DNA from: Isoetes taiwanensis
Lineage: Eukaryota; Streptophyta; Lycopodiopsida; Isoetales; Isoetaceae
Length of the DNA stretch: 64,000 nt
NCBI GenBank assembly: GCA_021234155.1
Contig: JAJEKV010000177.1
Coordinates: 434,001-498,000, forward strand
Direction of reading: 5' to 3'
The notes below the pieces were generated by a model. It was given only the letters and a program-made list of their open reading frames with translations. It was not told where the DNA came from and did no database searches. The translations under genes were made by a program, and so were the position numbers. Positions 4,183 through 61,363 of the stretch are shown piece by piece. The stretch's first letter is position 1, and each line of letters begins with the position of its first letter.

Positions 4183-4189
4183 GAAACGC

Positions 4190-5705: not shown

Positions 5706-5711
5706 AAAAAA

Positions 5712-8613
5712 TTGGTGAAGTCTGTAGGGAGTTTTGTGTTGTGGTACAAGAAGGACATTGTTGGTCAGCTTGTGAGAGAGGAAGAAGTTTGCACGCCACC
5801 AGGACAGATTAAACGCATAAACTGGCAGGTCGGAGGCAATGAAAGATTAGGCAATAATGAGACGAATCATGTGCAAGGTCTTTCTAGAGATGAGTTAATT
5901 GAGAAGGCTTGCACACTCATGCATGAATCTTTGCCACATGGCTTCTGGTGTGGTGTTATCGTTTTTTGCCGATCCAAACCATGTTGTTGCTGACGTGAAG
6001 TTAGGGGAAGGCTTGATAGCTGCTACTATCATGAGCCTATTTCCAATGCCTGAAAAGATCTCTATGCGCTGCCAAGCCTGTGCAGAAATGCCCCAACTGC
6101 ATGACCTTGTAAGATGGCCCATAGCCTTCGTGCTCGTTGATAACATTCCAGTTTCTACTTTCTGGTTGCAGTGAAGGAGAAGGATGTGGAGAATGAATCT
6201 TATTCCATTAGACCAGAAATTGGCATCGCAAAAAAGAGACCTTACCGCATGGTCAATCGGAGACCCAGGACACGTCCAGCACAGACCAAATGTGAAAGAA
6301 AAACTAGTGCTGAGGCTATTTTAGACTTCAGGTCATCACTGTGCTGCATGAAAAGATGCTGTGCAAATTTTACATCCAAGGAGATAGCTTGCATGAGAAC
6401 CTTTTACTGGAACATGAAGTCCTCGGAGCGCACAACCTTTGCATATAACATGCTAGATCTTTGCTCTGAAAATGGTGTAGTCCGCAACCTGATGTTGAAT
6501 AACAAACAGGTGTGCGTGAAAGCATGGCATAAAGCCTATGGCATACCCATTTCCACTTTTTACAAGTGGAAGAAGCTCTTCAATGATGGCCACAGAATTG
6601 CTGAGCACGGAAATAGTGGTTTTAAGAAGCCAAGGTCTCATACTTTGGCTGGCAATGCTGTGCTATCTATGTTCATAGATGAAAACGCAGAGACGATGCC
6701 ACACCGCTCGAAAATTACGAGCGAGGGTAGCAGACAAAATGTTAAGAGGCTACCTTCAGTCTTGAATAAGAAGGATATACACCAAGAAGTAGATATTACC
6801 GTTACAGAGATGACAGGCAAGCATATTTCTCCTTCGTCCTTTCTGTCTGCTTGGAAAGAGAATCATTCAGAGGTGGCAATAGCTAAGAGGATAGCATTTT
6901 CTAAGTGTAACACCTGTATTGTCATAAAGGAAAAGTTTGCTAAGACCAGAGATCCAAATGAAAGAAGGGTACTTGCCATGGAAAGAAGGGTACTGGTCCT
7001 GGAGAGCTTTGTCTCATAGATCTCTTGAGCACGCTTTAACCATTATACATGACAAGATGGATCAGAATAAGACCATGGTCCCTCGTCTAGAAAAGCTAGC
7101 AAAGTCCGTGTGGAGGGGTGAACGACTGAAGGTGCTCTCATGCACGTGCATGGTATAGGTGCCTTGGGCTACTTCTCACTGGACCTCTGACCTGATGATT
7201 CTAATTTTCATGTAGGATCCTTGAATCATACCTTGAAGACACTGGAGAATAAATCTGAGGATAATTGGGGCCATTTGAGAGATACAGATCGTCCTGAAAG
7301 CTGCTGGGGTGGAGCAATTTTAAACACAGATGCCCTTAGGACAAAAATGGTAAATGGCAGTAAAAATGATTTTATGCCTCCTATCAAGGGCCCTATGGTA
7401 TTGAACAAGTTGCCTAGGAGGCTTTACTTGCAGGTAGATAATTGCTCAGTTCAAAATAAGAATAGATATCTTTTCTCTTACTTGTCATACTTGGTTTGGT
7501 TAGGTGTCTTTGATCAAGTGCAGCTGGGATTCATGATGGTTGGACACACCCACGATGACATAGATGCCCTCTTTGGAAACTACTCTACTCTAACGAGAAG
7601 ATCAGATGCATTGACTATTCCAGAGCTTATGCAACTCTTCAGGCAGTGTAGGTCAAAGTCTCCTTCATCTTACCTTGTGTCAGAGGTTCCTAATTGGAAG
7701 GAATTCGTGAAAGGTTTTATCCCTGATAAGAAGGACCGTTTATGTGGTCATTTGGAACCTCTACTCTTCAAGTTCTGCATGAAGGATGGATGGCCACTAA
7801 TGTTCTACAAGATGAGGCCAGGGCATAGGGAGTGGCTCCCTGAAAAGGGAATCAGAATGTGGAAGGAGGATGCCCAAGGTTTACCTATGATTCCGAGAGG
7901 GTCACCTAAGGTTCGTGCAGCCATATGGGAGCTTGAAAGATATAGGTGCATTGAGAGCTTCTATTGCCAAGTACATGATGCACTGGGCAGCTATTTCTAG
8001 AGCTGGCGATAACTCATGGTCCAACACATATATGAATGAAGTTATTGACTATTGGTCCACCTTGTTGCGAGTGCTTGGGGACGTTCAGCCCGGTAGAGCT
8101 GTCATTCAGGATTTCTGGCCCAGCACCAGGCAAAATGCATTGGAAGAACCCGAAAACGTGTTTGTGGATGAGCACATTGAAGCGTCTCATTATGTAGGGC
8201 CTTTCTCGGCTAGACCCAAGAACCCAGTTGAAATATTCGACCCCTACCAAGATGTCAAGAAAGGAATGCTCTTGCTAATCAGGCCACATGATAACTGCCC
8301 GACGTGGATGGCTTTTGCCGAAGAGGACCCAATAGAGGACCCTAATCTCCCACATTACGAAGAGGTGTTTGTCTCTTGGTTTGAGCCTGTTGCCAGAAAG
8401 GGAACCTCATATGCAATGCAGTATAGGGATTGCTGGAGCAAGAATTGGAGACCCAATCCTAATGACCCGCCACGCTACCAACATTTGAAAACAATAGACT
8501 ACGGTTGGGCTGTAGAGACCAGGCCGTTGTCAATGGTGATCCCCAGTAGTGTGGGGGCTCAGTTGCAAGAATTAGTGGCTAAAGAAGCTAACGACGATGA
8601 TGAAAACTCTTGA
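5712..8613 (+). pseudogene. Gene B: DUF7869-like candidate transposase, left copy (better preserved)
   Basis: In order: an N-terminal region (SFVLWYKKDIVGQLV); a cysteine cluster CCMKRCC with FTSKEIACMRTFYW near 6340-6420; a helix-turn-helix-like stretch KAYGIPISTFYKWKKLF near 6530-6585; a second cysteine pair SKCNTCIVIKEKF near 6903-6940; then an RNase H-like core with acidic motifs DKMDQNKT (7051), VDNCSVQNKN (about 7437) and GHTHDDIDALFG (7541-7575). The C-terminus is acidic (ANDDDENS). This order fits my knowledge of DUF7869 proteins; the acidic triad suggests a DDD/E nuclease, which is inference. Frameshifts near 5975, 6170, 7010, 7160 and 7960 split the frame. It converges on small gene C2. 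Confidence 0.7.
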
Positions 8614-8751
8614 GGTATGCAATGCTCTTTTACATAATTACTATATCATATATAACATGCAAGGTACAATAGACTAGTTATTATTCATTACGCTCTGCAT
8701 TTTTCATCTTAACACAAGAGCTCTTACACTATACAATGCTGAACAGGTGAT

Positions 8752-8994
8752 TCATTCATCATCAATAGCTGCAGGAGTGATCCCTGATATCTCATAGCTA
8801 TTGCGCTCAGGAAGCCAAATGAGGTGGATCATAACACGAATTAGCCCAGGGCAGCGAATCTCAGCGCCCATAGCTTTGGATCGCAGGTAGGGATCAAGAA
8901 GAATACCCCTATCTAGGCAACCGACAAGATCATTGTAGCTCATTGAGCACTTGATCGCCTCGATGTGGTGAACAGAAGAAGGCAAAAAATCCAT
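8752..8994 (-). CDS. Small gene C2 of the large element (left copy, intact, 80 codons)
   Basis: Complete ORF starting MDFLPSSVHHIEAIKCSMSY and ending with an acidic DDE tail. It shares the plan of neighbouring C1: an H-I-x-x-(F/I)-K-C start, S-Y-N-D-L, L-D-P-x-L-x-S-K-A, then a hydrophobic strand ending W-L-P and a final E-(I/L)-x-G-I-T. There is no signal peptide or membrane segment. A TATA box 37 bp upstream and the surrounding 170 bp are duplicated in front of C1, so C1 and C2 arose by tandem duplication. The function is unknown; a small regulator of transposition or an adaptor for gene A or B is possible but unsupported. It is the only one of the four C copies with no frameshift. Confidence 0.65.
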   Translation of the reverse strand: MDFLPSSVHHIEAIKCSMSYNDLVGCLDRGILLDPYLRSKAMGAEIRCPGLIRVMIHLIWLPERNSYEISGITPAAIDDE

Positions 8995-9030
8995 GGGAGA
9001 TGAATGACCTCTGGCCCCGAAGTGAGCTGC

Positions 9031-9037
9031 TTTTATA
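9031..9037 (-). promoter_or_regulatory. TATA box of C2 (left copy)
   Basis: Minus-strand CACTATAAAAGCAGCTC, 37 bp before the ATG. The same box with flanking TTCACTATAAAA occurs before all four C genes in the window. Confidence 0.7.
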
Positions 9038-9302
9038 GTGAAGTAAAATTATTGATGTTAATTATTGGGGTAGACTGTAGCGCCATTATTGAGCGTATAT
9101 AAGACTCATGTATACGTACAAGTATAATGCATATTTTGTATGGATATGTGTATCAAGTGAAAACATGCTTTGTGGATTTTACTAAGGTTAAAGTATTTGT
9201 GCTTGAGTAATTTAGGTGTGATTGAAATTAGGGACTGCTTGCAAATAAAGTGGAGGTCGAAGAGCACAACCTTACACTATACTCAGGTATGATACATCAG
9301 AT

Positions 9303-9475
9303 AATATTCATTATGCTATTACATCCTTACATAGTTCATAGGTGCTCATATCATTATTATATCTTTAACAGATACAGTAGTCATCACTGATAACATTGAT
9401 TATGCTTATTACATCCTTACATATATAGAAGTGCTCATATATCATTATTATATCCTTGGCAGGTACACAAGTCTT
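9303..9475. repeat. Two imperfect direct repeats of about 85 bp between C1 and C2
   Basis: 9303-9385 and 9388-9475 share TTATTACATCCTTACATA, GTGCTCATAT and TCATTATTATATC in the same order. They lie downstream of C1 and upstream of C2, and were probably duplicated along with the genes. Confidence 0.6.
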
Positions 9476-9482
9476 CAACGAT

Positions 9483-9721
9483 TCACTCATCATCAACACC
9501 TGCTAAGGTGATGCCATTCAGCTCAAAGATCTCCTGATCAGGAAGCCAATAAAGGTGGACCACAACACGAGTGAGCTGCAAGCACTCGCAGGACCATCTG
9601 CTTTGGACTGGAGCCATGGATCAAGATTAACACCATTTCTATAGCATTCACACAGATCGTTATAGCTCAAGTAGCACTTGAAGGATCGGATGTGCTCCGG
9701 ACGACGAGGCAAGGAAGCCAT
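9483..9721 (-). pseudogene. Small gene C1 of the large element (left copy, one frameshift)
   Basis: Starts MASLPRRPEHIRSFKCYLSY and continues NDLCECYRNGVNLDPWLQSK, matching right-copy C1 closely. The frame breaks near 9590; the correct tail continues in another frame to VHLYWLP, FELNGIT and a DDE-stop at 9483. One indel therefore separates this copy from an intact gene of about 80 codons. Its TATA box is at 9758-9764. It is the gene closest to the element end, roughly 280 bp from the terminal repeat. The product is unknown. Confidence 0.6.
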
Positions 9722-9757
9722 GGAAGATGAATGACCTCTACCACCGAATGGAGCTGC

Positions 9758-9764
9758 TTTTATA
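9758..9764 (-). promoter_or_regulatory. TATA box of C1 (left copy)
   Basis: TATAAAA in the context CACTATAAAAGCAGCTC, 37 bp before the C1 ATG. The upstream 110 bp match the region upstream of C2 (9040-9150 versus 9765-9880). Confidence 0.7.
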
Positions 9765-9982
9765 GTGAAGTAAAATTATTGATGTTCATTATTGGTGTAG
9801 ATTGTAAGGTCATTATTGAGCTTGTACAAGTGTCACGTACACGTACAAGTATAACACATAATTTGTATGGATATGTGTATGTTTGTGACCTCATGTATCT
9901 TGGGCTCGAGAACTAGGTGAAAGTATTGGTGCTTGAGCAAATTAGGTGTGCTTAAAATTCTCAAAATTGCGTTATTTTCTCC

Positions 9983-10000
9983 AATTAATGAAATCATGCT
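9983..10000. repeat. Terminal inverted repeat of the large element (left copy)
   Basis: Reads as AGCATGATTTCATTAATT on the minus strand, identical to the left end of the right copy at 50969. Gypsy integrase sequence starts immediately outside. Confidence 0.75.
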
Positions 10001-12075
10001 TATTATCTCCTTCATGAAAAGCTTGCTTGCTTGAGGAGCTGTCATACTCGATTTACATGGAATAAAGTGAACCTGTTTAGACAACATATCTACAACTGTC
10101 TAGATTTGGTCATTTTTATGAGTCGGAAAACTTATCCTTTATAGTCAATTTATTGAGGGCTCGATAGTCTACACACATTCGATACCCTTTGTCCTTTTGT
10201 TTAATCAAAACGACTGGTGCATCAAAAGGCGAACAACTAGGACATATCAAATTGCGATCTAACATCTCAATTCTCTCTTTTTCAAGCTCCAACTTCTCAA
10301 ATAGCTTTGTGTTATATTGCAAATGTGTTGCATGCTAGAGTTTTCTCATCCTTGAAGAGATCATTAAATTGCTTGAAAAAGTTATACAATTCTGAAGGGA
10401 CTTGTGATGGAGGATCTAAAGCTCTCAAGTAAATGAAATATGACTCAGCTTCACTTTGTATTAACTTCTTTGCATCGGAGTATGAAAGCAAAGGTTTCCT
10501 CCAAAATTCAGGATCAGAATGTAATTTCAGAGGTTGACAATCAGCAAAGATTGTCACACTCCTTTCATGATAGTTTGGTGGAGCATCAAACTGTTCTCGC
10601 CATCCAATTCCCAAAATCACATCCATTGTTCCCACAGGCATTAGAATTAGAGCTCTATTCTTATGGGAGCTATCACAAATTTGCCACATTGGCTTTCGGC
10701 TACCTTTAACTCTTGCACAACTATAACTTGAGTTTGCAAGTCATAAGCGTCCAAGCCTACTTATTTGCCTAATCTTGTGATATGACATCATGTGTAGCAC
10801 TTTCGTCAAGTAAAACTGTTACTTCTTGATCTTTTATGGAATACTTCATCTTAAAAAGCCATGTTTCTGATGTGTCTTTGCTAGCTCTAGATAATTTTTT
10901 TAGATATGCGATCTGCAATCTCCCTCACTCCTGTTGAACATCAGCTTGCTTTGCTTTATTTCTTTCATCTCCATTACTTGAAGTTTCTGGTCTGTCCTCC
11001 ATGTTATGCAACTGGGCAACAAGTCGCTCTTTGGGTGCAGGCTCCTTGAACTGCACTTTCTTTCCAAACGTATCCACAGGAGTTGTGTTCTTAGGACAAT
11101 TAGACTGATAATATGCCCCTCCACATATATAACATCTAGACTTTGGTGCTTTGGCCGGCTCTTGTATCGGTTTTTGTCCGTTGTTCCAGTGCTTTCCGTT
11201 CCTTCCATTCGACTTTGATTACATGTCTTGGGATTTAATTTTCGCTCTGCAGTGCCTGCTTTCTTTATTGCATCCTCCATATTTGTTGGTTCAATAAGAT
11301 CCAAAGTTGCGCCAATACACCTCTTGGTTTATTCACAAACTTCCTTAGAAGTTCATCTTCACTCATGTTCCAAACTCGAGATCCCAAATGACTAAAAATT
11401 ATGTAATAGTCAGATAATGTCTCTCTATCATCCTATTTAACAAGGTCCCAATCTGTGATAGTTTGCAAGTAAATAATATGCTTCAAAAGCACTTCGAAAT
11501 TCTTTCCATGATTTAATCGGTGGTTGCATAAGTCTGCGTCCTTGCCAACCAGACTTGTGCTTGATCGTCCAGATTTGTATCCATGGCTTGGAGTCGTTCT
11601 TGCCCTACTGCGTTAACCTCTCTCAAAAACTTCTCCCAGATTCCAAGAAAACTTATCACCTGCATCGGCTTAATAGATCCTCCACTGTTGAAGTAAGGTA
11701 GATCCACTTTTTCCAACCATTTAGCAACTCTTTCTTGTTTTGATTTTCTGCTTCAACAATAATTATAAGACTTTGGTTGGAATTTGCCGGTGCTTGATTA
11801 GCAGGAGCTGGATTAATAGGCAGAGGATTTACAGGAGGATTAGTAGGTGGAAGACCACTTGATAATGGAGGCTGTTGGGTAGTACCGGGCAGAAATCTAT
11901 ATAGCAGAACTATCTGCTCTAGTTTTTGCTAATAATCCTCTTGAGATATAGAGGGTGGTAAAGCTATCCGATTAGCCATTTCTTTGCTATAAAATCAACA
12001 GTTCTCATTGTCTCCTGATACTGGCTATCAGAAATATTGGAGCAATTCGCCATTACCACATGTTCCATTATAGTT
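10001..12075 (-). mobile_element. Ty3/gypsy retrotransposon relic (gag, protease, RT fingers, integrase fragment)
   Basis: Minus strand. Gag pieces lie at 11716-11513 (LPYFNSGGSIKP, QAQVWLARTQTYA) and 11440-11200, with a degraded zinc knuckle near 11130. A protease-to-RT linker at 10689-10312 includes DVILGIGWREQFDAPPNYHE. RT fingers at 10322-10116 show SPFDAPVVLIKQKDKGYRMC, then VDYRALNKLTIKDKF. RT then joins directly to an integrase segment (TVVDMLSKQVHFIPCKSSMT, APQASKLFMKEI) at 10100-10007, so the rest of RT, RNase H and most of integrase are deleted. No LTR is seen. The integrase stretch is cut at 10000 by the large element, dating that insertion after the gypsy element. Confidence 0.8.
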
Positions 12076-48192: not shown

Positions 48193-50968
48193 TAAGAATT
48201 GGTTTTTCCATTAATCAAGAGAAACAGTACATGGTTGACCTGCTAAAAATAGCATAGATCAATGAAACAAAATGTCCCTAGATTGTGTCCATCACCATGA
48301 GGTGAGTGGAGAACTAGTAAAAGATGTAATCAGAGTTAAAGATTGACCCGTTAATAAGTCAAAATTAGCAATTAACAGTCTGTTGATGAAGGAAAAAGAG
48401 TCACGACCCCAGCAAACTTCTGCAATTACCTGTACTAGCCAAAACCAAAACAAGATTAGGAAGCAAGATTGAGCAAAGGATGTTCAGGTTGGTGAGAAAA
48501 CAATCCCAGGAGTTCCGATCTAGGTTTAGGATATTGGCAGGTTTAAGAGCAAAGGGAGTCCAATTTGGCATTAAAGTATGCATAGAAAGGTGCAGCAGAT
48601 CCAAAAATGTAGGAGTCTTCGGTCTTGTCAGCAATGTCATCAATGCAAGACGACTCAAATTCACATAAGCAGAGTAAGGAACCATATAGATCTGCCAAAA
48701 GTCTATGCGTATAGTACTGCTCCCTGTATCTTGAGAACTAGTTCACTGATATGTAATAGTGGTACATAGATAAGAAGTCAAACATGCAGAACATCTGGGT
48801 CACTTCTCTGCAGAATGCTTCAGGTAGACTTGATTTCATGCCTATAGCAGATTCAGATCTATTTATGCTGCTCCAGAAAAGCTCAAGTTCTTGATCCGCG
48901 TCCTTCTTGGTGTCACCCAACTCCACAAGGCTTTCTTTACAAACTCTTAGATATGCTAGCATCATCAAAAAATACAGAGTTAGAATTAATAACACATAAA
49001 TTAGAGACAAACAAATCAAAAGCCCCCCTAAAGGCACCAATTGAGTCCCACTTCCTGTTATATTTGTCACCCAATTTCCTTTTGTGAGCTGTTGCAGTAG
49101 ATTCAATATCCAGCTGGAAATGCATCTTAATCCAAAAGATAGAGAAGTTTTTTTTACCATACACAACTCTATTTCTTGCTTTTCAAATATTCCATAAGGC
49201 AATGAACATAATAGTATTGGCAAAGGCACAATTGTTTTGAATATAGGATAAGAGATTGCCATTAACTTTCATAGGGAAGAGGAAGCCTAGCTTTTCATTG
49301 AACCAAGACCAGAAAGAATTAAGCTTAGGACAGAGAAAAATGTGCTCAGTGCTCTCTTCCATACTGCAACCAAGCTGGCAATTTGGGAAAATGTTCTCAT
49401 ATCTTCTGGAGGTCATTTGTAAAGTAGAAATACTCTTGTTTGCCAGTAACCAGATAAAGAAACTTAACTTAGAAAAACAATAAGAGTGCCACACTTCATA
49501 AAACAGAATCTTACCATCCTCCTCAGAAATAGACCATTTGGATGAAGCCTTTGAGGGAGCAGCAGATTCATTAATGATTGAGTAGATCTTGCTTACCTTA
49601 TAATGACATTTGCCATCCAAGTTCCAGTTAGTTGCTTTAGGCACCACATTATTAAGCCAAAGGTAAGGAAGAATGGATCTGATATGGTAATATATCTTTC
49701 TGTCACTTGAGGTACCTTGCAAAATTCTCCTAAAGGCTGTCCAAGAAATAAATTTACCATCTAAGTATAGATCACCCAGGAACCTGAAACCATGATCAGT
49801 CCACTTTTTATAAATTCTTGGGTGCCTCAGGGCCATAACATTGTTTGCATGATCACTAAGGATAGGATTCCAGAAAATAGACATTTGAAGGTTAAGGTCA
49901 TTAGGGACAGCATATTCAAAGCAAGATTGAACTTTATTCCAGGCCATGATTATATTCCTCATGAGAGGGGAAGTATTAGAACCAGGGTGGAGATTATTGA
50001 AGGAGAAATCAGGCAAGATATGACTTAAGGAAGGGAAGGGTGACCATCCACATGAGAGTTTTGAAGCCAGAATTTTACAAATTGAGAAGCAGGACTAGAA
50101 TTAGACACAAGAGAATTCCACACATATTTCCCAGCCAGGGCACAAGCCTGCAGATGAAGATCCTTACAGCCTAGACCACCATTTTTCCTTGGCTTGGCAA
50201 CATAATTCCAACCTACTACTAAGTGAGACCCCTTCCATATGAATCTTCTTACTAATTTCTCAATTTCCTGATAGGTAGCTTTAGGAGCCACTAGGGCAGA
50301 AGAAAAGTAGATGTGAGAGCTAGCAAGGACTGAATTAGCAATAATAGTCCTACCTGCAAAAGATAGACCCCCTCTAAAATGATTCAACTTCTTCTTAATT
50401 CTATCAATGATAGGTTGCCAAAGACCTTTCAAGGAAGGATTAAGAGAGAGAGGCATTCCCAACAAAGTAGAAGCTTGATTACAGTTGAGGACCTTGATAT
50501 CAGCAAAGTTTGGCTGAATATTATCTCCTATGATGACAGATTTTGCCAGATTTAGATTCACACCAGAGGCAGCTGAGAATTGCTTGATGATTTCCAAGAA
50601 AGTTTCAATATTAGAGAGATCAGCATCAAGGAAAGCAAAGGTATCATCAGCATATTGAGAAATGGTAAGACAATCCTCACTGTTGGGCATCTGAAGACCC
50701 CTAATCTCCCCAAGATTTTTCAAATGAATTACAGCCCTTGTAAGCATTTCAGCCACAATTAAGAAGAGGTATGGAGCAAGGGGGCAGCCCTGTCTGACAC
50801 CACGAGAAAGAGGGAAGAAATGAGAGGGAGATCCATTGACAATGACAGCAGAGTTTGAGTGAATGTTCAGACCATGAATTAAAAGCCTGAGTTTAGGATG
50901 AAAGCCAAACTTAGTGAGAGCAATGACAAGGAAATCCCATCTAACAGTGTCAAAAGCTCTCTTGATTA
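48156..50968 (-). mobile_element. LINE, 3' part: RT, zf-RVT, 3' end and poly(A); split by the large element
   Basis: Poly-T at 48156-48187 is the tail. ORF2 at about 50966-49183 includes AFDTVRWDF, GVRQGCPLAPYLF, the catalytic YADD near 50655, SLKGLWQPIIDRIKKKLNHF, and a zf-RVT segment (LANKSISTLQMTSRR, C-Q-L-G-C, H-I-F-L-C). A frameshift separates 50025 and 50016. The family is close to the LINE at 28309-36407, with the same motif order and spacing. The remaining 5' part continues at 61358-64000 on the other side of the large element. Confidence 0.85.
50963..50968. repeat. Target duplication TGATTA, left
   Basis: TGATTA directly outside the left end of the large element. The same six bases follow its right end at 61358-61363. 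Confidence 0.7.
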
Positions 50969-50986
50969 AGCATGATTTCATTAATT
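50969..50986. repeat. Terminal inverted repeat, left end of right copy
   Basis: AGCATGATTTCATTAATT; identical to the end of the left copy at 9983-10000 on the opposite strand. Confidence 0.75.
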
Positions 50987-51204
50987 GGATAAAATAACGC
51001 AATTTTGAGAATTTTGAGCACACCTTATTTGCTCAAGCACGAATACTTTCACCTAGTACTCGACCCCAACAAACATGAGGTAATTAACATACACATATAC
51101 ATACAAATTTTGTGTTATACTTGTACGTGTACATGACACTCGTATAAGCTCAATAATGGCCCTACATTGTACGCCAATAATTCACATCAATAATTTTACT
51201 TCAC

Positions 51205-51212
51205 TATAAAAA
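51205..51212 (+). promoter_or_regulatory. TATA box of C1 (right copy)
   Basis: TTCACTATAAAAACGGCTTC, 36 bp before the ATG at 51248; the same context as in the left copy. Confidence 0.7.
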
Positions 51213-51247
51213 CGGCTTCACGAGGGGGTAGAGGCCATTCATCTTCC

Positions 51248-51494
51248 ATGGCTTCCTCGATGCCTCGTCCAGAGCACATCTGCTCTTTCAAGTGTTACTT
51301 GAGCTACAACGATCTGGGCGAATGCACTAGAAATAGCGTTAAGCTTGATCCATGGCTCTTATCTAAAGCTGATGGACCTGCTAGTGCTTGCGTGAAGCTC
51401 ACTTTCAGCGTTAAAGTCCATATTTATTGGCTTCCCCGATCGGGATATCTATGAGCTGAATGGCATCACGAGCTTTGATGTTGATGACGAGTGA
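51248..51494 (+). pseudogene. Small gene C1 of the large element (right copy, one frameshift)
   Basis: Starts MASSMPRPEHICSFKCYLSY, then NDLGECTRNSVKLDPWLLSK and KVHIYWLP; a +1 shift near 51440 leads to an early stop at 51454. In the other frame the tail runs IYELNGIT to DDE-stop at 51494, as in the left copy. The two C1 copies therefore share length, ends and motif order but carry different single indels, so their ancestor was an intact gene of about 80 codons. No known family. Confidence 0.6.
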
Positions 51495-51830
51495 ATCTGC
51501 ACCTGCTAATAATGTAATAATGACATGGGTACCTAATAACTAAGTAAGGATGTAATAGCATTCTGATTAAGGATGTAATATCACGTACCTTAACTGAGTA
51601 TATTGTAACGATGTGCTATCCCACCTCCACTTATTCTGCAAGCTGTCATTGAATTCAATCATAGCTAAATTAAATCAAGCAAACATGTTTTGAAACATAC
51701 GCATATTAGTACGCATACATATATCCATACGAAAGATGTATTATACTTGTATTTATACAACGGTCTTATACACGAGCAATAATGGCGCCGAAGTCTACCC
51801 CAATAATTCACCTCAATAATTCTACCTCAC

Positions 51831-51837
51831 TATAAAA
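51831..51837 (+). promoter_or_regulatory. TATA box of C2 (right copy)
   Basis: CTCACTATAAAAAAGCTTCT, 38 bp before the ATG at 51875. Confidence 0.65.
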
Positions 51838-51874
51838 AAGCTTCTCACTTGGGGCTAAAGTTCATTCCTCTCAC

Positions 51875-52113
51875 ATGGGATTATTTGCCTTCATCAATTC
51901 ACCACATCGAGGCGATCAAGTGCTCAATGAGCCACTCGATCTTGTTGGTTGCCCTAGACAGCATCTTCTTCTTGATCCCTACCGCTAAGAAAAGCTTTGG
52001 GCCGAGATTCGTTGCCTAGCGTCAATTAGTGTAATGATCCATCTGATTTGGCTTCCGAAATAATGAGCTATGAGATATCGTGGATCACTACTACAGATCC
52101 TCAAGATGAATGA
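51875..52113 (+). pseudogene. Small gene C2 of the large element (right copy, degraded)
   Basis: Nucleotide match to the intact left C2 (8994-8752): ATCGAGGCGATCAAGTGCTC, CTTCTTGATCCCTACC and ATCCATCTGATTTGGCTTCC are recognisable, but small deletions break the frame from the first codons onward. It ends near a GATGAATGA at 52113. It adjoins the 3' end of gene B, which comes from the other strand. Confidence 0.6.
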
Positions 52114-52250
52114 ATCACTTGCTTAGCATTGTATAGTGTAAGAGCTCTTGTGTTGAGATGGAAAACGCAGAGCTAACAAATAATAACTAGTCTATTGTAA
52201 CTTTCATGTTATGAATGATATAGTAATTATGTAAAAGAGCATTGCATACC

Positions 52251-55197
52251 TCAAGAGTTTTCATCATCGTCCTTAGCTTCTTTAGCCACTAATTCTTGCA
52301 ACCGAGCCCAACACTACTTGGGGATCACCACTTGACAATGGCCTGGTCTCTACGGCCCAACTATAGTCTATTGTTTTCAAAGGTTGGTAGCGTGGCGGGT
52401 CATTAGGATTGGGTCTCCAATTCTTGCTCCAACAATCCCTATATTTGCATTGCATATGAGGTTCCCTTTCCGCAACAGTTCAAACCAAGAGACAAACACC
52501 TCTTCATAATGTGGGAGATTAGGGTCCTCATCGGGTCCTCTTCGGCAAAAAGCCATCCATGTCGCGCTTATCATGTGGTCTGATTAGCAAGAGCATTCCC
52601 TTCTTGACATCTTGGTAGGGGTCAATATTTCAACTGGGTTCTTGGGTCTACCCGAAAAGGCCCTACGTAATGAGATGCTTCAATGTGCTCATCCACAAAC
52701 ACTCTTTCGGTTCTTCCAATGCACTTTGCCCGGTGCTGGGCGAAAATCTGAATGACAAATTTCTACTGGCTGCACGTCACCAAGCACTCGCGCAAGAAGG
52801 TGGACCAAGAGTCAATAACTTCATTCATATATGTGTTGGACCATGACTTATCGCCAGCTCTAGAAATAGCTGCCCAAAGGCATCATGTACTTGGCAATAG
52901 AAGCTCTTAATGCACCTATATCTTTCAAGCTCCCATATGGTCGCGGGGACCTTAGGTGACCCTCTCGGAATCATAGGTAAACCTTGGGCATCCTCCTTCC
53001 ACATTCTCGATTCCCTTTTCAGGAGCCACTCCCTATGCCCCGGCCTCATCTTGTAGAACATTAGTGGCCATCCATCCTTCATGCAAAACTTGAAGAGTAG
53101 AGGTTCCAAGTGACCACATAAACGGTCCTTCTTATCGTGGATAAATCCTTTCACGAATTCCTTCCAATCGGGAACCTCTCACAAGGTAAGGTGAAGGAGC
53201 CTTTGAACTACACTTGCTGAAGAGTTGCATAAGCTCCGAATAGTCAATGCATCCGATCTTCTCATTAGAGTAGAGTAGTTTCCAAATAGGGCATCTATGT
53301 CATCGTGGGTGTGTCCAACCATCATGAATCCCAAAATTTGACTTGATCAAATACACCTAACCAAACCAAGTATGACAAGTAAGAGAAAAGATATCTATTC
53401 TTATTCGACCGAGCAATTATCTAGTCTGCAAGTAAAGCCTCCTAGGCAACTTGTTTTGCTACCATGGGGCCTTTGATAGGAGGCATAAAATCATTTCTAC
53501 CGCCATTCATCATTTTTGTCCTAAGGTTATCTCGTGGTTTAAAATTGCCGCACCCCACCGCTTTCGACTATCAAGATTCTCTCAAATGGCCCCAATTATC
53601 CTCGATTTATTCTCCGGTGTCTTCAAGGTATGATTCAAGGATCCCACATGAAAATTAGAATCATCAGGCCGAGGTCCAAAGAGAAGTGGCCCAAGGCACC
53701 TATACCATGGCCGTGCATGAGAGCACTGTAAATGACCGACCTTCATCGTTCACCCCTCCATACGGACTTTGCTAGCTTCTCTAGACGAGGGACCATGGTC
53801 TTATTCTGATCCATCTTATCATGTATAATGGTTAAAGCGTGCTCAGAGATCTATGCGACAAAGCTCTCGAGACCAAGAAAGGCTCCCCGCATGAAATCTG
53901 GGCGTCATATGTGATTTTCTCTCTATTGCAAGTACCCTTCTTTCGCTTTGGATCTCGGTCTTAGCAAGCTTTTCCTTTATGACAATACTGGTGTTACACT
54001 TGGAAAATGCTATCCTCTTAGCTATTGCTACCTCTGAATGATTCTCTTTCCAAGCGCATGAAATGACGAAGGAGGAATATGCTTGCCCGCATCATCTCTA
54101 GAACGGAAATATCTACTTCTTGGTGTATATCCTTCTTAGTCAAGACCGGCGGTAGCCTCTTAACATTTTGTTCAAGCTACCCTCGCCGTAATTTTCGAGC
54201 GATTGTGGCATCGCCTCTCTGCTTTTCATCTATGAACATGGATAGCACAAAGATTGCCGACCCAAAGTATGAGACCTTGGCTTCTTAGACCCGAAGATTT
54301 CCGTGCTCGCCGGCAATTCAGGGTCGTCATTGAAGAGCTTCTTCCACTTGTAAAAAGTGGAAATGGGAATGCCATAGGCTTTATGCCATGCTTTCACGCA
54401 CACCGCTTTGTTATTCAACATCGGTTTGCGGACTACACCATTTTCGAGCAAAGATCTAGCATGTTATATGCAAAAGTTGTGCCCGAGGACTTCATGTTCC
54501 AAAGAAAAGGTTCTCATGCAAGCTATCTCCCCGGATGTAAAATTTGTACAAAGATCGTTTCATGCAAAGATGATGACCTGAAGTCTAGAATAGCCTCAAA
54601 GACTAGTTTTTCTTTCACATTTAGTCCGTGGCCGGGCGGTTCTCGGTCTCCGATTGACCATGCCAGTAAGGTCTCTTTTTGGTGATGCCAATTTCGGGTC
54701 TAATGGAGTAAGGTTCATTCTCCACATCCTTCTCCTTCACCGCAACCACAAGAGTAGAAACTGGAATGTTATCAACGAGCACGAGGGCTATGGGCCATCT
54801 CACAAGGTCATGCAGTTGGGGCATTTTACGCACAGCCCGGCAAATAAGCATAGAGATCTTTTTTCGTGCATTGGAAAAATGTTCATGATAGTAGCGACTA
54901 TCGAGCCTTCCCCTAACTTCACGCCGACACAAAGATGGTTTGGATCGGCAAAAACGATAACACCATAGGCATAAGCCATGTAGCAAAGATTCATGCATGA
55001 GTGTGCACGCCTTCTCAACTAACTCATCTCTAGAAAGCCCTTGCACACGACATTAATTGCCTCATTAGTGGCTAACCCCTCATTCCCTCCGTCTCCGCCA
55101 CCATCCTTTTTATCCGACCGGTGGGGTGCAAGCTTCCTCATGTCTATCTAGTGGAGCAACAATGTCCTTCTTGTACCACAACACAAAAGTCCCCACA
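52251..55197 (-). pseudogene. Gene B: DUF7869-like candidate transposase, right copy
   Basis: Minus strand. The main frame starts at ATG near 55192 (MGEFVGTFVLWYKKDIV), where the left copy has TTG. Then come LSRDELVEKACTLMHESLLH, the cysteine region near 54560, GIPISTFYKWKKLFND near 54375, a second cysteine pair near 53990, and the acidic-motif core, with the D-N-x-S-x-x-N-K-N and G-H-T-H-D-D-I-D boxes at about 53420 and 53300 in broken frames. RPGHREWLLKRESRMWKEDA and the WMAFCRRGPDEDPNLPHYEE region follow. The stop corresponds to 52253-52251. Many frameshifts. It is colinear with the left copy, so domain order is confirmed by two independent copies. Confidence 0.65.
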
Positions 55198-55205
55198 AAT
55201 TCACC

Positions 55206-55379
55206 CATTTTTTTCTATTTCCAATTCGAATTGGTAGCGAATCGTCCATCCGAACATTCACAATTGAAACGACAACCATACCCTCCCCGGACAATTAATT
55301 GTGATGGCTTCGAATTGTGGACTCTTCCTTCGCCACCTTTTTTTCCCCAAAGCAGATACAAATGAATTACATCAGCCAT
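55206..55379 (-). CDS. Leader ORF in front of gene B (right copy)
   Basis: MADVIHLYLLWGKKGGEGRV at the start and SNWK-stop at the end, 57 codons or so. It matches the left leader ORF including the TAG. The main gene B ATG follows about 8 nt after the stop. The preceding TTGTTTGGAG is a poorer acceptor than the left copy's TTCTTTGTAG. Confidence 0.45.
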
Positions 55380-55489
55380 CCTCCAAACAAGAGGTCGTGA
55401 ATAGCGCCGCCGCCATCCTAGTGAGCGTAAAGCACCGTGATCATAAACCACTACAAAAATATGAACTGAAAAAATAAGAAATGGTCACG

Positions 55490-56722
55490 ACTTTCACCAC
55501 CGCGATCTTATCGAGCATGGGTAAGAACGTGGTCGCGCTTATTTGCAAGCATTCACACTAGCCGCTTTCAATAAGAACTCGTGCAAATCAAATTTCGAGG
55601 CTAGCTAGTGGGTTCAACTCAAAGTTATCGATATCCGGGAGTTCTTTGGTCAATAGCAAGTGTAGATGGTTGAAGGTATCGCGACCGCCGATCTCGTGGA
55701 GCACCAAAGTTAAACGATTGACTTACGTAATAAGGCATTACTCCTACCTCACGTATCACGGTGTTTAGTGTCATAAAAACAAAGTTTTAGTTTCATCCAC
55801 ATAGAGAAAGAAAGCATATACTTGAAACACGCTTACATTGTATAATAAACACACCAGAGTGCACAGCTTTTGCTTAGAACATCTATTTTTACATAGTTGC
55901 AACAAAGTATCGAGGTATCTTATCAATCCATGCAATACATAGTGAATGTTAGTGCGTAGACTTCGGAGGTTGCGCTTATAATTGAAATTCAAAGGCATTA
56001 CCGATACGTTGAGTTCACTTCGGAGGGATATGCATCGAGAATAGGCCTTTTACCTCGAAGAAACCCCCGAATTCGATGCGATTCTGCGAATTCGAGTGTG
56101 TAGTGGCGGATTGCAAGCGGATTTTCAAATACGCCCTCGTCGGCCAATGGATGCGAATTCGCAGCAAATCCTTGCCCAAACTTGGCCCGCTTTTAGGCGC
56201 AGCTCCAAATACTCGAAGATCTTGCAAAACAATGAAATTTGAATTGGCTTTTCCCCGCTTTCGAATTGGTTTGTTCTCGAATTCAAATTTTGCAGTCGCT
56301 GTCCGTCCGTAAACCGGATATTTTGGAGGCATTTATGGCTGGATAAAGTGTCAGGTCCGAAATTATGACCCGAAATTGAACGCGGACGTCCAAGTGGATA
56401 AAGACCTTTCGTACGGGTTACTGGCCTTTCCGGACGGGTATATTCGCACGACCGCATTAATGTCAGGGAATAAATACGAGCGGCCGGCCGGTAATTATTA
56501 CTGCCGGCGTACGACGCCATTATGGCTGGCACGTTTTTTCACGCGCCATCATGAGGGGCGGGCATTTAATTTCCGCGGCCGCGTTCTATAAATTGAAACT
56601 CAAAACATTCAAAAACTAATTTCTACTCCGCGATTTCATTCAAATACTAAGCGCCCGACCTCGAAAGCTCCCCACCCACTCCAAAACCCATATTTCAGAT
56701 CAAACCAAATACCAGCGATCCC
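55490..56722. other. Divergent promoter and leader region between genes B and A (right copy)
   Basis: Palindrome-type sites lie near 55494, 55530 and 55677 on the gene B side. The stretch 56332-56015 (minus) is open (MPPKYPVYGRTATAKFEFEN, KANSNFIVLQDL) and partly matches the left copy, so it may be a gene B leader exon. A TATA box for gene A lies at 56587-56593, with a leader of about 110 bp before its ATG. Confidence 0.4.
56587..56593 (+). promoter_or_regulatory. TATA box of gene A (right copy)
   Basis: TCTATAAATTG about 135 bp upstream of the gene A ATG, after a CCGCGGCCGCG run. Equivalent to 4174-4182 in the left copy. Confidence 0.55.
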
Positions 56723-59700
56723 ATGGCACCTAAGGACTCCCTCAGAGAAGGTATTTTCTAACATTTCAGCTCAGCAAGATCGCGGCCGCGATCTTGCCTA
56801 CTAGAACTTCTATTGTTTTCATAAGTATAGATGCTCAGCAAGATCGCGGTCGCGGTCTTGCTTGATAGGTTTTATAATTTCTAGATAGCGGTCTTCATAA
56901 GTGTAGCTGCTCATCAAGATCGCGGCCGCGGTCTTGCTTGATTGGTTTTATAATTTCCAGATAGCGGTCTTCATAAGTGTAGCTGCTCATCAAGATCGCG
57001 GCCGCGGTCTGGCTGAGCATAGATTTTCTTTATTGCGATGTTTTCTTGCCGTGCTTAAGTGCTACACAAAGTCGCGGCCGCGATTGTGTGGAGTTCTATT
57101 TTAGCTGCTTGGCAGGATCGCGGTCGCGTTTCTCTCTGATGAGTTTAAACCTTTTATTGCACCACATTATGCAGCCTACCGTGCACTCACTACAGCTTTT
57201 GTTTACAAAGACTTGCTCTCTTCCGAGGACCGATGTCGAGCCACCCGTATTATAACCCCTTCCAATGAAAGGAAATGGTGTATCGAGATTGCACGTGCTA
57301 TACCGCACATTAAGGGTGATCGCAGAAAAGGACCCGCGGCCTTTTCTCGCGGACCGGAAAAAGCTGAGGACGTTGAACAAGTTGGCATAGTGGTGGCAAT
57401 GTGGGAAGGCACGAAGAACAATGTGCAAGATGCCATCATATGCAGCATTGAGGACCCACAAGCATTGCAGTTTCTGGAGTACATTTTGAAATGGCGCAAT
57501 TATGACCCGTCTTTGATGACAGCCAGCAAAATGAACAAGCCAAATTACGGGAAAAACGTCCCGACGTCGCCTAAGGGTATGGCTGGTTGTTGCCATCCTA
57601 TGAATCTCTCTCTTTGTCGTATAAAGGGAAACAGACATATTGCTCGGTTCTCGACATGCAGAAATGGTTTGTCTACAGACAAGAAGCCTCCGAGCTGTGC
57701 CTTGAAAGCGGTTCGGGGCGAGAAGATGCCCTCCGTGATGGACACCAATTGGCTAAGAGCCGTGGCCAAGAAAAAGAGTGTGAAGCCTATTGCTACTTTG
57801 GGAGAGACCTCAAAGACCAAAAAGAAATTGCTCAAGAACCACAATCCACGATAAACCCCTCCGGTATTGTTAACCCTACTCTTCCTATTGCTATGAAGGC
57901 CCCAGATAGCAATACATCTGGTGGATTTATTCCAAAAAAATTCCCTCCTTTCAAAATTAGCCTTAAGAATCTGACACCTCATGAGGATAGCCCGCAGCCC
58001 AAAGAGTTCTCAAACCCCCTCAGCCATTTAAATGCCTCCTCTAAACTAGCATTGACATGGCCCCAAGCACCGCCATTCCAAATTTGAAGTTCAATCCCAA
58101 GAGGAACGCGAAGATGGCAGAGCAAACCACTCGAAGCTTGAACAGTTCAAAAGGTTCTACCCCTTAGGGGTTAATTGGTTTACAAAGATTTCTATTTTTG
58201 ATTGTGAACCCACACCCAAAGAAACTTGACACACGTAACGCGGTCAAATGACCATGTTCAAACTCGTTAAAAGCTTCAAGACATACCCGACAGAGGTCCT
58301 CACCCCTCGGCCGACGCCGTTCCGCTTGACCCTATTACCGTGTAACTAATTCTTTATCTTTTGGACACTTTCGTTATGTAGATTTGACCTCGACGGGTTG
58401 TCTATTTTTCGTGAGGAGGGTGACATGGAGCAATCCGTAAGATTTGAAGGGCAAGAAATTTTATATTATTTCGCAACCACAAAGATTTGTGCCGCATAAC
58501 TCCTTTGTTCTATCGTCGGGCGAAGTTCGAAGCAAAGAACGAGAATTTGCCAAAGTATATGCTAGAAGAAGATCGAGGGTGCCGAACGGAAATCTTACGC
58601 ACAAGGAATATATAGAGTTGAGTATTCAATGCAACGGCAATTGCAAACACCGTGTACGAGAGCCACCGATTGAAAAAAATGCAACAACTTCGTCCATCAA
58701 GACAAGGCTTATGGTTGCACTCCACAAGGACCTATAGGGACAGCTAAAATTTCAGCTTGGAAGGTATTTATTTGTTTTCTACTGCCAAGTTCGCGCGTCG
58801 ATCTTGATGACCTTGAAATTGCTTCTCGGGATTTCCATGAAATTGCAACGACCACCTTGAAAGTGCGCAGGAGCTTAAGGATGAAAAGCAATTCATTTTT
58901 ATGGATGAGAAGGTTTTCAAGAAGTTAATGGAAGTTGCTCGGCCTCAGGGGTGAGTCGTGAACTCGACGATCATGGTGAGTTTCCGACAAGCCATCCAAA
59001 GACTTCTTTAACAAGACCTCGCCCGGTTGCTACGAGGTATGTCGAATGCAGAGTTGTCACACCGCCGATGAGATTATAGAAGGCAAGACCTATTTAAAGG
59101 TGCGGTCGGGTTATAGCGGAGATTTGATTGCGCATAACGGCAACCGACATCGTAACCCTCACTTTTATGAGGCGCGAAATTTTGTCTTATGCCTCAAATT
59201 TGCCGCAAAAGGATTTCGATAGTCGGGAGGAATTGCTTCGTGGCTTTTCCCCGATTTCACCGAATCGTAGAAGAATACCGGATATATCGATATAACGATA
59301 CGTAGCACGTGAAGGCTAACTATAACAAGGATCATACACTAGGTAACCCACCAGAGCCTTTTGGAGCCAATCAGAATATTCTAAAGCCGTAAGAGGCTAG
59401 AAAAAGAAAGGAAAAGAAAAATATTGTCATAGCAAAGACAAAGGATGGCATCCCTACTTCCTCCCAAGTGTCAGAGAATGCGACACTGATATTTATTGAC
59501 ATCCGAGGGATAAACAAGGTATGGGATTGCAAGAAATACATAGATCTATTTACAAGGATAGCTACCATGACGGATGCCAAAGTTTATCACTTGGTCATTA
59601 TCATGCGCCGCTGAATTTGCCCAATTGCTTGTTCAGTCAGAAGCAAATTCAGGGCGGTGGCTACCTATCTTTAGGTTCCTATGAAGAAATGGGATGGGAG

Positions 59701-60808
59701 AGCAAAAGAAGGGTGAAAGAACATCAGTACTTTATTAGTCATATGTGCATTAACAGGAGTGATGTTCGTGTAGCACCCGCGGCAACCAACGAGTTGGAGC
59801 TTCACCTATATCCACACCGGGCAAGGCTCCTAAGTCAACACCATTGCCTCCAATGCCGCTAACAGGTAATGAGGATGCCGACGAAGATAAAAAAGAAATA
59901 TCGACTCTTTTACGGGCAAACCAAGATTCAAATGGGCGGCAATGGAAGGAGATCTTGTATTGAAATGCCAAATGAAACCTCCTATGCCTACCATATTGTT
60001 GAAATGTGGTGCCGACCGATGGTTGTGTTCGATTTCTTTTACTGGGGCGGCTTCGTGGTTGCTCTTATGCAAGGCAAAAGAGCGTGGCTTACTAAAGTTC
60101 AGGTAAAGTGTGCGTTTCCCCGAGGGCGCTCTTTGAAACGCTTTGATAAGATGGCCAATCCAAGTGCCGATGGGTTTGAGGAAGAGCCGAAGAGAGAATG
60201 TTGACCCCGATCCAGCTCAACCCGACATCGGATCACCCAAAACACGATCTATCAAAGTTGGATTCCATTTTGGAAAACCTCGATGCTAAGTCCTAATGAG
60301 AGAGAATGCAAGAAACAAAGCGCTTGCTTGAAGAGACGGAAAAAGGTATAGAAGCCCTGAGCCCACTTTTCAAAAATTGAATGCACTTAATGAGAAGCTT
60401 GATGGGTACATGCCTTTCTTGACAGCTTAACATAAGTTTGAATACGTGCATGAGAACACATGGAAACAGACCCAAAGCACATGGAAGCGCACCAACAAAG
60501 ACATGGACATTGACCAAGATGAGGTTCTTGGGTCACGGGGCATCGGTACACAGCAAGAAGCAGAAGCTCTATCATCCACATCAGAATGCTACTGCTGCGG
60601 AGCTACTGCAAAACGAACTTATAGGCGGGAGCAGAGCAGTGCAGTGGACAGTGAAGAATGGGAGCCTGATTCACATCTGCAGCGCATCGCAAAGGCCATG
60701 GGTGTTGTAGTTCCAGAGATCACAAAGTTATTCGTGAGATGGACACAACACAAGCTATGGAATTGGGTAGAGAGCATGTCAATCGCATGGCCAATGAAAT
60801 GGGTGTGA
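56723..60808 (+). pseudogene. Gene A of the large element, right copy (unknown function)
   Basis: Exon 1 is 56723-56750 (MAPKDSLRE) with a GTATTT donor. Intron 1 holds the palindrome array. Coding segments then run through several frames: RIITPSNERKWCIEIARAIP at 57240, KAEDVEQVGIVVAMWEGTKN at 57355, PQSTINPSGIVNPTLPIAMK at 57842, MFKLVKSFKTYP at about 58255, KEREFAKVYARRRSRVPNGN at about 58535. The second intron, near 58765-58838, has lost its acceptor (CGG for CAG). Segments continue to about 60808, including a C-terminal SECYCCGATAKRTYRREQSS. The end point is uncertain. No enzyme motif is recognised. It is divergent from gene B and shares its palindromes, which suggests that the two work together. 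Confidence 0.5.
56775..57125. repeat. GC-rich palindrome array in gene A intron 1 (right copy)
   Basis: A perfect 22-bp palindrome (core AGATCGCGGCCGCGATCT) lies at 56775-56796. Near-perfect copies follow at 56839-56860, 56915-56936 and 56991-57012, with variants at about 57064-57089 and 57111-57130. Two of the units sit in a 75-bp tandem duplication (about 56866-57012) containing ATAGCGGTCTTCATAAGTGT. Surrounding DNA is AT-rich. Confidence 0.85.
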
Positions 60809-61339
60809 TACCTGATCAAGTATCTGAAACACAATCAGAATAATTATCTCCTTCAATCAGTAATTATGTTGTATATTACTTCCTTCAATGGAAATTTTTG
60901 TTTCGAAAACTTTGGTTTTGTCTTTACCCATATCTTTTACCATATGTTTAATGCTAAAAATAATCGCGACCACATCCTCCTCAGAAACAATTACATGGCT
61001 TTAAATACTAAATTTTGTGTGATATCCTTGCTCCTCGGTACCTTCTTTTAACACAATGCTCTCATATGGTTTTAATAAAAGGCACATTCTTTCGTCTCCT
61101 TTCAGCTGCGAAACATCGCGTTCGCGCTTCTTGCGAGAAGTTTTCACACTCCCTCCTACTACGTTATACTCGCGGTGAACCTTTGCATTAGCAGTAAAAA
61201 CTATATTTCCGAATAAGACTGAAGCATTTGCAGAATTTGTGCAAAAAAACACCAACTTTTACTCAATTGGTAGTAGTTTTTGCACTATATGGCTATACGC
61301 TAACCTATTTCATGCTAAACGAGAATTCCAAATTTCTCT
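60809..61339. other. Element tail between gene A and the right TIR
   Basis: AT-rich, with one degenerate palindrome-type site (CATCGCGTTCGCGCTTCTTG near 61113). No promoter or ORF of note. The small genes are thus found only at the other end. Confidence 0.4.
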
Positions 61340-61357
61340 AATTAATGAATTCGTGCT
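61340..61357. repeat. Terminal inverted repeat, right end of right copy
   Basis: Reverse complement reads AGCACGAATTCATTAATT; two differences from the left end. Confidence 0.75.
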
Positions 61358-61363
61358 TGATTA
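61358..61363. repeat. Target duplication TGATTA, right
   Basis: Same six bases as 50963-50968. Confidence 0.7.

Follow-up and report, generated by a model that had tools for sequence, protein, structure and literature searches.

A giant terminal-inverted-repeat element of Isoetes taiwanensis, most likely a Sola-type DNA transposon, and its array of palindromic dyads

The window analyzed here, a stretch of 64,000 nucleotides from the lycophyte Isoetes taiwanensis, contains two copies of a giant element with terminal inverted repeats (TIRs) that is best explained as a cut-and-paste-type DNA transposon, most likely of the Sola group (Sola1). We put the probability of this reading, including the roles that are proposed below for genes A and B and for an array of palindromic sites ("dyads"), at roughly 0.65. 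The initial annotation had pronounced the element impossible to place. That verdict was sound in describing a 10.4-kb multi-gene TIR transposon lying outside five named superfamilies, but it rested in part on a target duplication of the wrong length; "unplaceable" can now be exchanged for a testable Sola1-like assignment with a 4-bp duplication.

The right copy spans 10,391 bp between the termini AAGCATGATTTCATTAATT and AAGCACGAATTCATTAATT. Its TIRs are 19 bp long, start with AAGC (end sequence AAGCAYGAWTTCATTAATT) and read AAGCAYGA; the inverted termini had been correctly matched, but as 18-bp ends, each of which lacks its outermost base. The 6-bp duplication TGATTA that had been read next to them is an error: its outer T and A are element ends on one side and chance flank matches on the other. 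The host LINE that the right copy interrupts does rejoin, as had been claimed, with a frame open across the joined site for 387 aa, longer than either flank used. The left copy, also as claimed, is related and lies in opposite orientation (window 1965-10002 aligns with 50967-58863). It has further homology outside the window and is complete, extending past the window to position 423839 of contig C993, with a 4-bp duplication, ATTA; its gene A is broken by a 9.67-kb insertion that terminates at window position 1965.

50968-61358, no strand: right copy, 10,391 bp, both ends read
50964-50967, no strand: left GATT target duplication of the right copy, 4 bp
61359-61362, no strand: right GATT target duplication of the right copy, 4 bp
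1966-10001, minus strand: in-window part of the left copy (remainder at C993:423839-426292)
10002-10005, no strand: ATTA, left-copy target duplication (matching tetramer at C993:423835-423838)
1-1965, no strand: right-hand part of the 9.67-kb insertion within the left copy's gene A

Tabulating duplication lengths over copies in the genome, a check that the initial annotation had proposed, yields 4 bp in every one of the 26 copies with both ends examined (21 end pairs, four complete copies and the left window copy; two pairs duplicate others, leaving 24 independent). In all 21 end pairs the duplication is exactly 4 bp and never 5 or more, while mismatched, cross-pair ends agree in 10 of 420 combinations; 16 different tetramers are represented among the 21 duplications. 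(A technical note: eight full-copy attempts were made, four of which lacked one or both recognizable ends in the retrieved stretch and were excluded from the duplication and main dyad counts; plasmid segment L108 was left out.) The family is abundant: searching the genome for the end pattern with at most two mismatches finds 3878 near-consensus ends (1913+1965), versus 123 (72+51) for the reversed pattern as control. Among the matches listed (100 places), 20 neighboring convergent end pairs were found, all less than 30 kb apart and every one (20/20) with a 4-bp duplication; also among the matches listed, only 8 of the first 20 gene B places have a gene A place less than about 8 kb away, which counts against the main reading.

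Gene B was said to be DUF7869-like and is (E=5.8e-37), nothing else in a Pfam search rising above cut-off; in the left copy the domain is located in the piece at 7191-7997.

52254-55043, minus strand: gene B main exon, right copy (DUF7869; frames broken, identity from other copies)
6171-8610, plus strand: gene B, left copy, split into three pieces with open frames (6171-7016, 7191-7997, 7891-8610)

Its sequence suggests that gene B probably encodes a DDE transposase. The acidic motifs are common to a second DUF7869 clade at 32-34% identity, D-x-MDQ is kept in all six rows covering that stretch, and dN/dS is 0.12-0.24 where dS could be measured, in 4 of 10 pairs. A sequence search of the PDB gave no match, and a structure model made from the window protein alone is too poor for use (mean pLDDT 32.7). 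Of two pattern searches for gene B in viral contigs, one returned 0 matches and the other 67, with 0 confirmed. When element ends were sought for the second clade, one sharp boundary was located and a clear TIR was not found. An orphan domain, DUF7869, is tied to a very abundant TIR transposon.

To which superfamily does the element belong? The five that had been set aside stay set aside, on the 4-bp duplication and on a gene B without their Pfam transposase domains: hAT elements duplicate 8 bp and MULE/Mutator elements about 9 bp, and the transposase domain of neither is present in gene B; CACTA/EnSpm has CACTA-type termini (here AAGCAYGA) and a 2-3-bp duplication; PIF/Harbinger combines a 3-bp TWA duplication with DDE_Tnp_4, which gene B lacks; Tc1/mariner duplicates TA. 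PiggyBac and Kolobok duplicate TTAA, a tetramer absent from the 16 found. Sola1 duplicates 4 bp, and two hallmarks of Sola, TIRs and a 4-bp duplication, are present in all 26 copies.

The likeness to Sola1 in particular rests on the 4-bp duplication, the giant size and a large gene opposite the transposase strand. The closest published system found, judged by its published description, is Sola1-1_Ec32 of the brown alga Ectocarpus, a giant of 21.5 kb that encodes, opposite its transposase, a protein of about 1,000 aa with predicted ParB-like DNA-binding and N4C/N6A methyltransferase domains; such proteins are proposed to bind and modify their own element (PMC12477816). Both elements are giant and have the large opposite-strand gene, but that of Isoetes measures 10.4 kb and resides in a vascular plant, and its gene A differs in having a weak methylase match, an alteration at the presumed DPPY position and no detected ParB domain. 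It also has a dyad array and genes C1 and C2, of which the available description of Sola1-1_Ec32 makes no mention (PMC12477816). An opposite-strand methylase-gene architecture reported from algae is thereby extended, on that description, towards a vascular plant. Sola2 of Dictyostelium and Polysphondylium, again compared by description, shares short TIRs, A/T-rich 4-bp duplications and captured accessory genes; its transposase has 888 aa in one family, and its accessory gene, unlike those of Isoetes, is a Fanzor (PMC3627910). One can instead think of DUF7869 transposases as a kind of their own, in a superfamily that has escaped description, and of the Sola1 likeness as convergent gene capture. 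That Pfam connects gene B above cut-off to DUF7869 alone, and that no mention of this domain was found in the literature searched, would suit such a view; the A/T-rich 4-bp duplication of Sola2 (PMC3627910) and the record of Sola1 in Physcomitrella (PMC9033089) speak against it, and we consider it doubtful, at about one chance in four.

Gene A, on the strand opposite gene B and divergent to it, had been called unknown, but its C-terminus weakly resembles DNA methyltransferases.

57246-58307, plus strand: gene A exon 1, right copy (broken; exon borders from other copies)
58827-60198, plus strand: gene A exon 3, the methyltransferase-like part, right copy (broken)
continuing to about 60843, plus strand: gene A C-terminal tail, right copy

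By its substitution pattern, gene A is under purifying selection: dN/dS is 0.26-0.41 where dS is measurable, in 6 of 45 pairs (in the remaining pairs dS is saturated, with dN up to 0.40). Pfam N6_N4_Mtase matches three of the 13 members, at E 0.038 or weaker, and a PHROG "DNA methyltransferase" matches 2 of 3 sequences (best 0.029); hhalign gives E 0.0059 on the motif-I stretch. No methyltransferase match reaches its curated cut-off, hhalign probabilities are only 2 and 6 percent, and families without any relation to methyltransferases do at least as well (Cas9_PI 0.0022, DUF5496 0.015, each in 2 of 13). Beta-class amino DNA methyltransferases have motif I near the C-terminus and a catalytic [DNS]PP[YFW]; in gene A the presumed motif IV (DPPY position), placed by eye, reads D-x-R in 13 of 13 aligned rows. 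By eye, too, we take the stretch FYIISGNHSI..AAQ to be reminiscent of ParB, but Pfam, PHROGs and NCBIfam detect no ParB domain, and hhalign of 12 gene A rows (from 20 loci with exon matches, those passing a length filter) against five P1-type ParBs gives E 0.79. PDB matches are not convincing (cytochrome c peroxidase, at best E about 0.01; ZAP-70 at 0.054 for the joined exons), and a search for phage relatives produced a single phage (two records) at E=5.

Six complete copies contain the dyad, ATCGC-N4-GCGAT, 64 times in total, with 8-12 occurrences per copy; it is absent from 81.3 kb of other DNA.

56779-56792, no strand: dyad site 1, ATCGCGGCCGCGAT, gene A leader (element position 5812)
56843-56856, no strand: dyad site 2 (5876)
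56919-56932, no strand: dyad site 3 (5952)
56995-57008, no strand: dyad site 4 (6028)
57071-57084, no strand: dyad site 5 (6104)
57117-57130, no strand: dyad site 6 (6150)
61115-61128, no strand: right subterminal dyad (10148), its start 243 bp from the right end

Genome-wide counts are 533/529, versus 0/1 in the comparison. Among the matches listed, the 55 distinct sites on contigs up to C903 all lie in or near family DNA: 40 lie near family places and the other 15 make up 11 loci, each with at least one of gene A, gene B and element DNA. The four copies without full recognizable ends hold 3, 3, 6 and 3 dyads. In the DNA checked, the array was found only in this transposon family, a new observation. 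Most dyads sit either in the leader and introns of gene A or in the 5' region of gene B. All six complete copies have one dyad that starts 243-245 bp inside the right end, five of the six have a second at 350-395 bp, and none has a dyad in the first 4.2 kb from the left end. The extended site is bipartite, TGCTC..ATCGC-N4-GCGAT..GAGCA, with an inner and an outer pair of half-sites as in the palindromic boxes of P1 ParB/parS, although profile tests find no homology between P1 ParB and gene A. Half-sites are kept in copies whose synonymous sites in gene B are saturated, a sign of selection for recognition of the DNA by a protein.

What might the element do with these sites? Gene B would be an RNase-H-like DDE transposase, its acids perhaps one D each from D-x-MDQ and LQ(L/V)DN and an acid of GHTHDxID, cutting at the AAGC ends and staggering the target by 4 bp. 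Gene A, a putative DNA-binding protein of methyltransferase fold, or another element-encoded protein, would recognize the dyads that the element carries in its leaders, its introns and the subterminal DNA at its right end. Much as VANC acts on noncoding motifs of the VANDALs, which are MULEs, this self-binding might mark or de-silence the element and regulate A and B; it would not serve end cleavage alone, since the left end is free of sites. Methylation may have been lost and binding alone kept, given that D-x-R occupies the presumed DPPY position in all 13 rows. VANDAL21 of Arabidopsis has many copies of a short family-enriched motif in noncoding DNA, often as tandem repeats, and VANC21, its anti-silencing protein, demonstrably binds that motif (PMC5735166). 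The noncoding DNA of the Isoetes element is similarly dotted with a family-enriched motif; the dyad is palindromic and its binding presumed, whereas the nine-base YAGTATTAY of VANDAL21 is arrayed in one orientation (PMC5735166). We hold only tentatively, at somewhat less than even odds, that gene A, its catalytic motif lost or unusual, binds dyads in parS-like self-recognition and thereby marks thousands of copies or lifts their silencing. The proposal that such transposons bind and mark themselves gains, at any rate, a definite candidate site in the dyad; if gene A does act in this way, a vascular plant would harbor an anti-silencing or self-marking system that evolved independently of VANC.

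Two other uses of the dyads must be weighed. Were they binding sites of the transposase, gene B, for synapsis, the constant positions at the right end would be fitting (they suit an end-related role generally), and CACTA transposases have subterminal motif arrays; yet the left end is free of them, most lie in the leader and introns of gene A or 5' in gene B, and the second DUF7869 clade has none in 30 kb, so that this use appears quite improbable. Host transcription factors, or RNA hairpins in the transcripts, would dispense with an element-encoded binder and would account for the placement of dyads in leaders and introns, that is, in transcribed noncoding DNA. Mirrored complementarity slightly exceeds expectation at positions -5 to -2 and 0, as hairpins would have it, but at the other unconserved mirrored positions it is near independent expectation, so that conservation looks base-specific rather than hairpin-driven; the tie to one transposon family in the loci checked is also unexpected for host-factor sites, and this explanation is unlikely, if somewhat less so.

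Four genes, A, B, C1 and C2, are conserved in the element family. The small pair had been described accurately: C1 and C2 are duplicated genes of about 80 aa, and homologues were found.

51248-51494, plus strand: gene C1, right copy (about 80 aa, ends DDE; frame damaged)
51879-52060, plus strand: gene C2 remains, right copy (paralogue of C1)

Constraint on both is weak, the median dN/dS of C2 being 0.58.

The copies of this element establish its ends, a 4-bp target duplication and its set of genes. The right copy starts at 50968 with AAGCATGATTTCATTAATT and ends at 61358, where the opposite side reads AAGCACGAATTCATTAATT. Once the termini are set at AAGC the exact flank match is GATT: the initial annotation had placed each end one base too far inward, and the 6-bp TGATTA duplication that it proposed dissolves accordingly. 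Its interrupted host LINE frame does rejoin, the joined flanks giving one open frame of 387 aa, and the right copy is thus a confirmed insertion.

Across the genome, 1110 contigs totalling 1,658,258,908 bases, the end pattern matches 1913 + 1965 times when up to two mismatches are allowed, against 72 + 51 for the reversed pattern. Among the 100 matches listed, 20 pairs of neighbours point towards each other and span 9.4-24.9 kb. Flanks were fetched for all 20; together with the right window copy, a 4-bp duplication is found in 21/21 pairs and one of 5 bp or more in none, while mismatched flank combinations match over 4 bp in 10/420. Four complete copies obtained for other purposes are flanked on both sides by TATA, AAAG, CATA and GAGT, respectively, and the left window copy by ATTA, with its far end at C993:423839 (C denotes genome contigs). 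Tabulating duplication length over further copies, the check that the annotation had proposed, thus yields 4 bp, not 6, in 26/26 copies (24 independent). The duplications differ between copies and are rich in A/T, which makes up 72 of the 84 bases in the 21 pairs. The same flanks recur on different contigs in the fetched segments L013/L014 and L027/L028 (C57/C321) and, reversed, in L009/L010 and L041/L042 (C51/C712); these twice-found insertions reflect either haplotigs or segmental duplication within the assembly.

Gene B is a candidate DDE transposase, on the strength of its motifs and its linkage to the terminal inverted repeats. In element copy E1032 it is an open exon of 947 aa, in E1034 a frame of 1019 aa; Pfam finds DUF7869 (1.4e-43) in the former, and otherwise just a sub-threshold HTH. 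LQ(L/V)DN and GHTHDxID are common to all seven aligned B rows, D-x-MDQ to the six that reach that region. The best 150 of 9908 first-look DUF7869 candidates in the genome were scored; among the matches listed, at least 8 of the first 20 B places have an opposite-strand A place within 8 kb. "DUF7869" was not found by name in the literature searched. The seven rows include a second clade, which aligns at 32-34% identity and supplies the genome's best-scoring DUF7869 matches among those listed:

Second DUF7869 clade: L091:3846, L092:3831 and L093:3092; sharp left boundary at AACAAAGTTTAAAATG.

AAGC ends, significant gene A and dyads were looked for in the 10-kb pieces of this clade and none was found; tblastn over the surrounding 30 kb matched B and no significant A. 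This clade belongs to a different family of elements, whose transposase is related.

Gene A is split into three exons, whose GT/AG borders can be followed in E1034, E1032 and E1096; exon 3 is open or almost open in many copies (at least 77 matches). Both A and B are under constraint: exon 3 of A has dN/dS of 0.26-0.41 in the 6/45 pairs whose dS can be measured (in the other 39, dS is saturated and dN is 0.21-0.40), and B has 0.12-0.24 in 4/10 such pairs (the remaining six saturated, dN 0.16-0.21). What A encodes is a matter of weak signals. No Pfam family scores above its cut-off; the family matched by the most members is N6_N4_Mtase (3/13, best E 0.038), and phrog_3008 "DNA methyltransferase" appears in two of three exon-3 proteins submitted (E 0.029 and 0.11). 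Aligned by hhalign with nine N6/N4 methylases (YhdJ and 8 of 40 phage matches listed), A is matched only in the motif-I stretch, at E 0.022 with 7 A rows (probability 2 percent) and 0.0059 with 13 (6 percent); the 7-row profile gives 0.5 and 0.24 against two unrelated E. coli proteins. At what is presumed to be motif IV (assigned by eye), 13/13 rows have D-[MIF]-R. The methyltransferase likeness of the C-terminal region is only suggestive, because other families score equally or better (Cas9_PI 0.0022, DUF5496 0.015, each in 2/13). FYIISGNHSI[CF]AAQ in exon 2 looks ParB-like by eye; profile tests give that reading no support. Past the methyltransferase-like part, the A rows (L084, L083, L085, L090 and others) share a long conserved C-terminal tail, ITQxTD..., terminating ..VPExVxETQ.

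The initial annotation mentioned palindromes; an array of dyads (ATCGC-N4-GCGAT) was counted in six complete copies. The core ATCGCGGCCGCGAT, with up to two mismatches, occurs 2-10 times per copy, 44 times in total, against 0.008 per copy in shuffled elements and no site in the remaining 43.6 kb of the window. The relaxed form, which keeps just the conserved half-sites and allows up to one mismatch, has 64 sites (8-12 each) and none in 81.3 kb of other DNA, the 30 kb around the second DUF7869 clade included. Core sites lie outside tblastn-aligned coding sequence in 42/44 cases (28.8 kb; coding that did not align escapes this mask); the other two, within 34.9 kb of aligned coding, are both at the extreme start of aligned A exon 1. 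Among the 64 relaxed sites, at least 5 represent a single conserved position within the coding sequence of exon 3. Dyads are placed in the A leader, the 5' region of B, the A introns and close to the right end.

The dyad logo is symmetric past the core (T at -7 mirrored by A at 22; 1.41 and 1.15 bits, which overstate independence, many of the 64 sites being homologous positions or tandem repeats), with outer parts TGCTC/GAGCA and a variable centre. Mirrored complementarity at unconserved positions is about as expected, and raised at -5 to -2 and 0; since it is near expectation at the other such positions, we read the dyad as a predicted protein-bound DNA site, not an RNA hairpin. Across the genome, matches to GATCGCGGYCGCGATC number 533/529 against 0/1, its palindromic form counting on both strands. 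Among the matches listed (contigs up to C903), 40 of 55 distinct sites have a listed end or A/B place no more than 13 kb away. The other 15 form 11 loci, for each of which 3 kb was fetched (C57:310409 falls outside its piece): ten contain gene A or B sequence and the remaining one just 88 bp of element DNA. In the loci examined, dyads are found only together with the element family. No mention of them was found in the parts seen of the literature on comparable elements.

What might the dyads do? In the proposed mechanism the gene B product would cut and paste the element with a 4-bp stagger, and an element-encoded protein, most likely that of A, would bind the dyads in an act of self-recognition, serving regulation or anti-silencing. 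Plants offer a precedent for such a self-binding system in VANC21, described as binding a motif enriched in its own family, mostly noncoding and tandemly repeated (PMC5735166, seen in part). Alternatively, dyads might serve synapsis. The chief argument for this is that one dyad begins 243-245 bp from the right terminus in 6/6 complete copies, but dyads are grouped in leaders and introns, and none was found in the leftmost 4.2 kb of these copies; we therefore rank self-recognition above synapsis. The 243-245-bp spacing is kept though the clades are otherwise strongly diverged; in the right window copy this dyad is at 61115.

The nearest known element among those found is Sola1-1_Ec32, a giant Sola-1 element with a 1104-aa ParB-like/methyltransferase gene on the opposite strand; the parts seen of that paper cite comparable green- and red-algal cases (PMC12477816). 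A/T-rich 4-bp duplications are described for Sola2 (PMC3627910, in part), and a review, also seen in part, lists Sola1 of Physcomitrella (PMC9033089). Membership of the Isoetes element in Sola is unproven, the likeness being to published descriptions of such elements. The portion seen of the I. sinensis genome paper (PMC10541799) yielded nothing on such elements; we do not present the family as unpublished, Repbase, Dfam and most subscription literature lying outside the comparison.

Close to the left end are C1 and C2, tandem paralogues of about 77-80 aa, found by tblastn, whole or partial, in E1032, E1034, E1054, E1058, E1096, E668 and both window copies. Values of dN/dS (C1, 0.29-0.48 in 3 pairs; C2, median 0.58, range 0.03-0.90, in 15) are modest evidence of coding. 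Left ends appear to have been exchanged between families by recombination, since the C2 proteins of E1032 (L049/L050) and E1058 (L053/L054) are almost identical (dN 0.005, dS 0.17), yet synonymous sites in their B genes are saturated.

The left copy extends from C993:423839 to window 10001 and measures 10,490 bp without the 9,673 bp that break it inside gene A:

Nested insertion: window 1-1965 plus L094:2293-10000; 9.67 kb, ending at window 1965, inside left-copy gene A.

Its ends resemble CACTTTG..CAAAGTG and it contains inverted repeats separated by about 5.5 kb, so it is probably a second DNA element; by eye it is CACTA-like.
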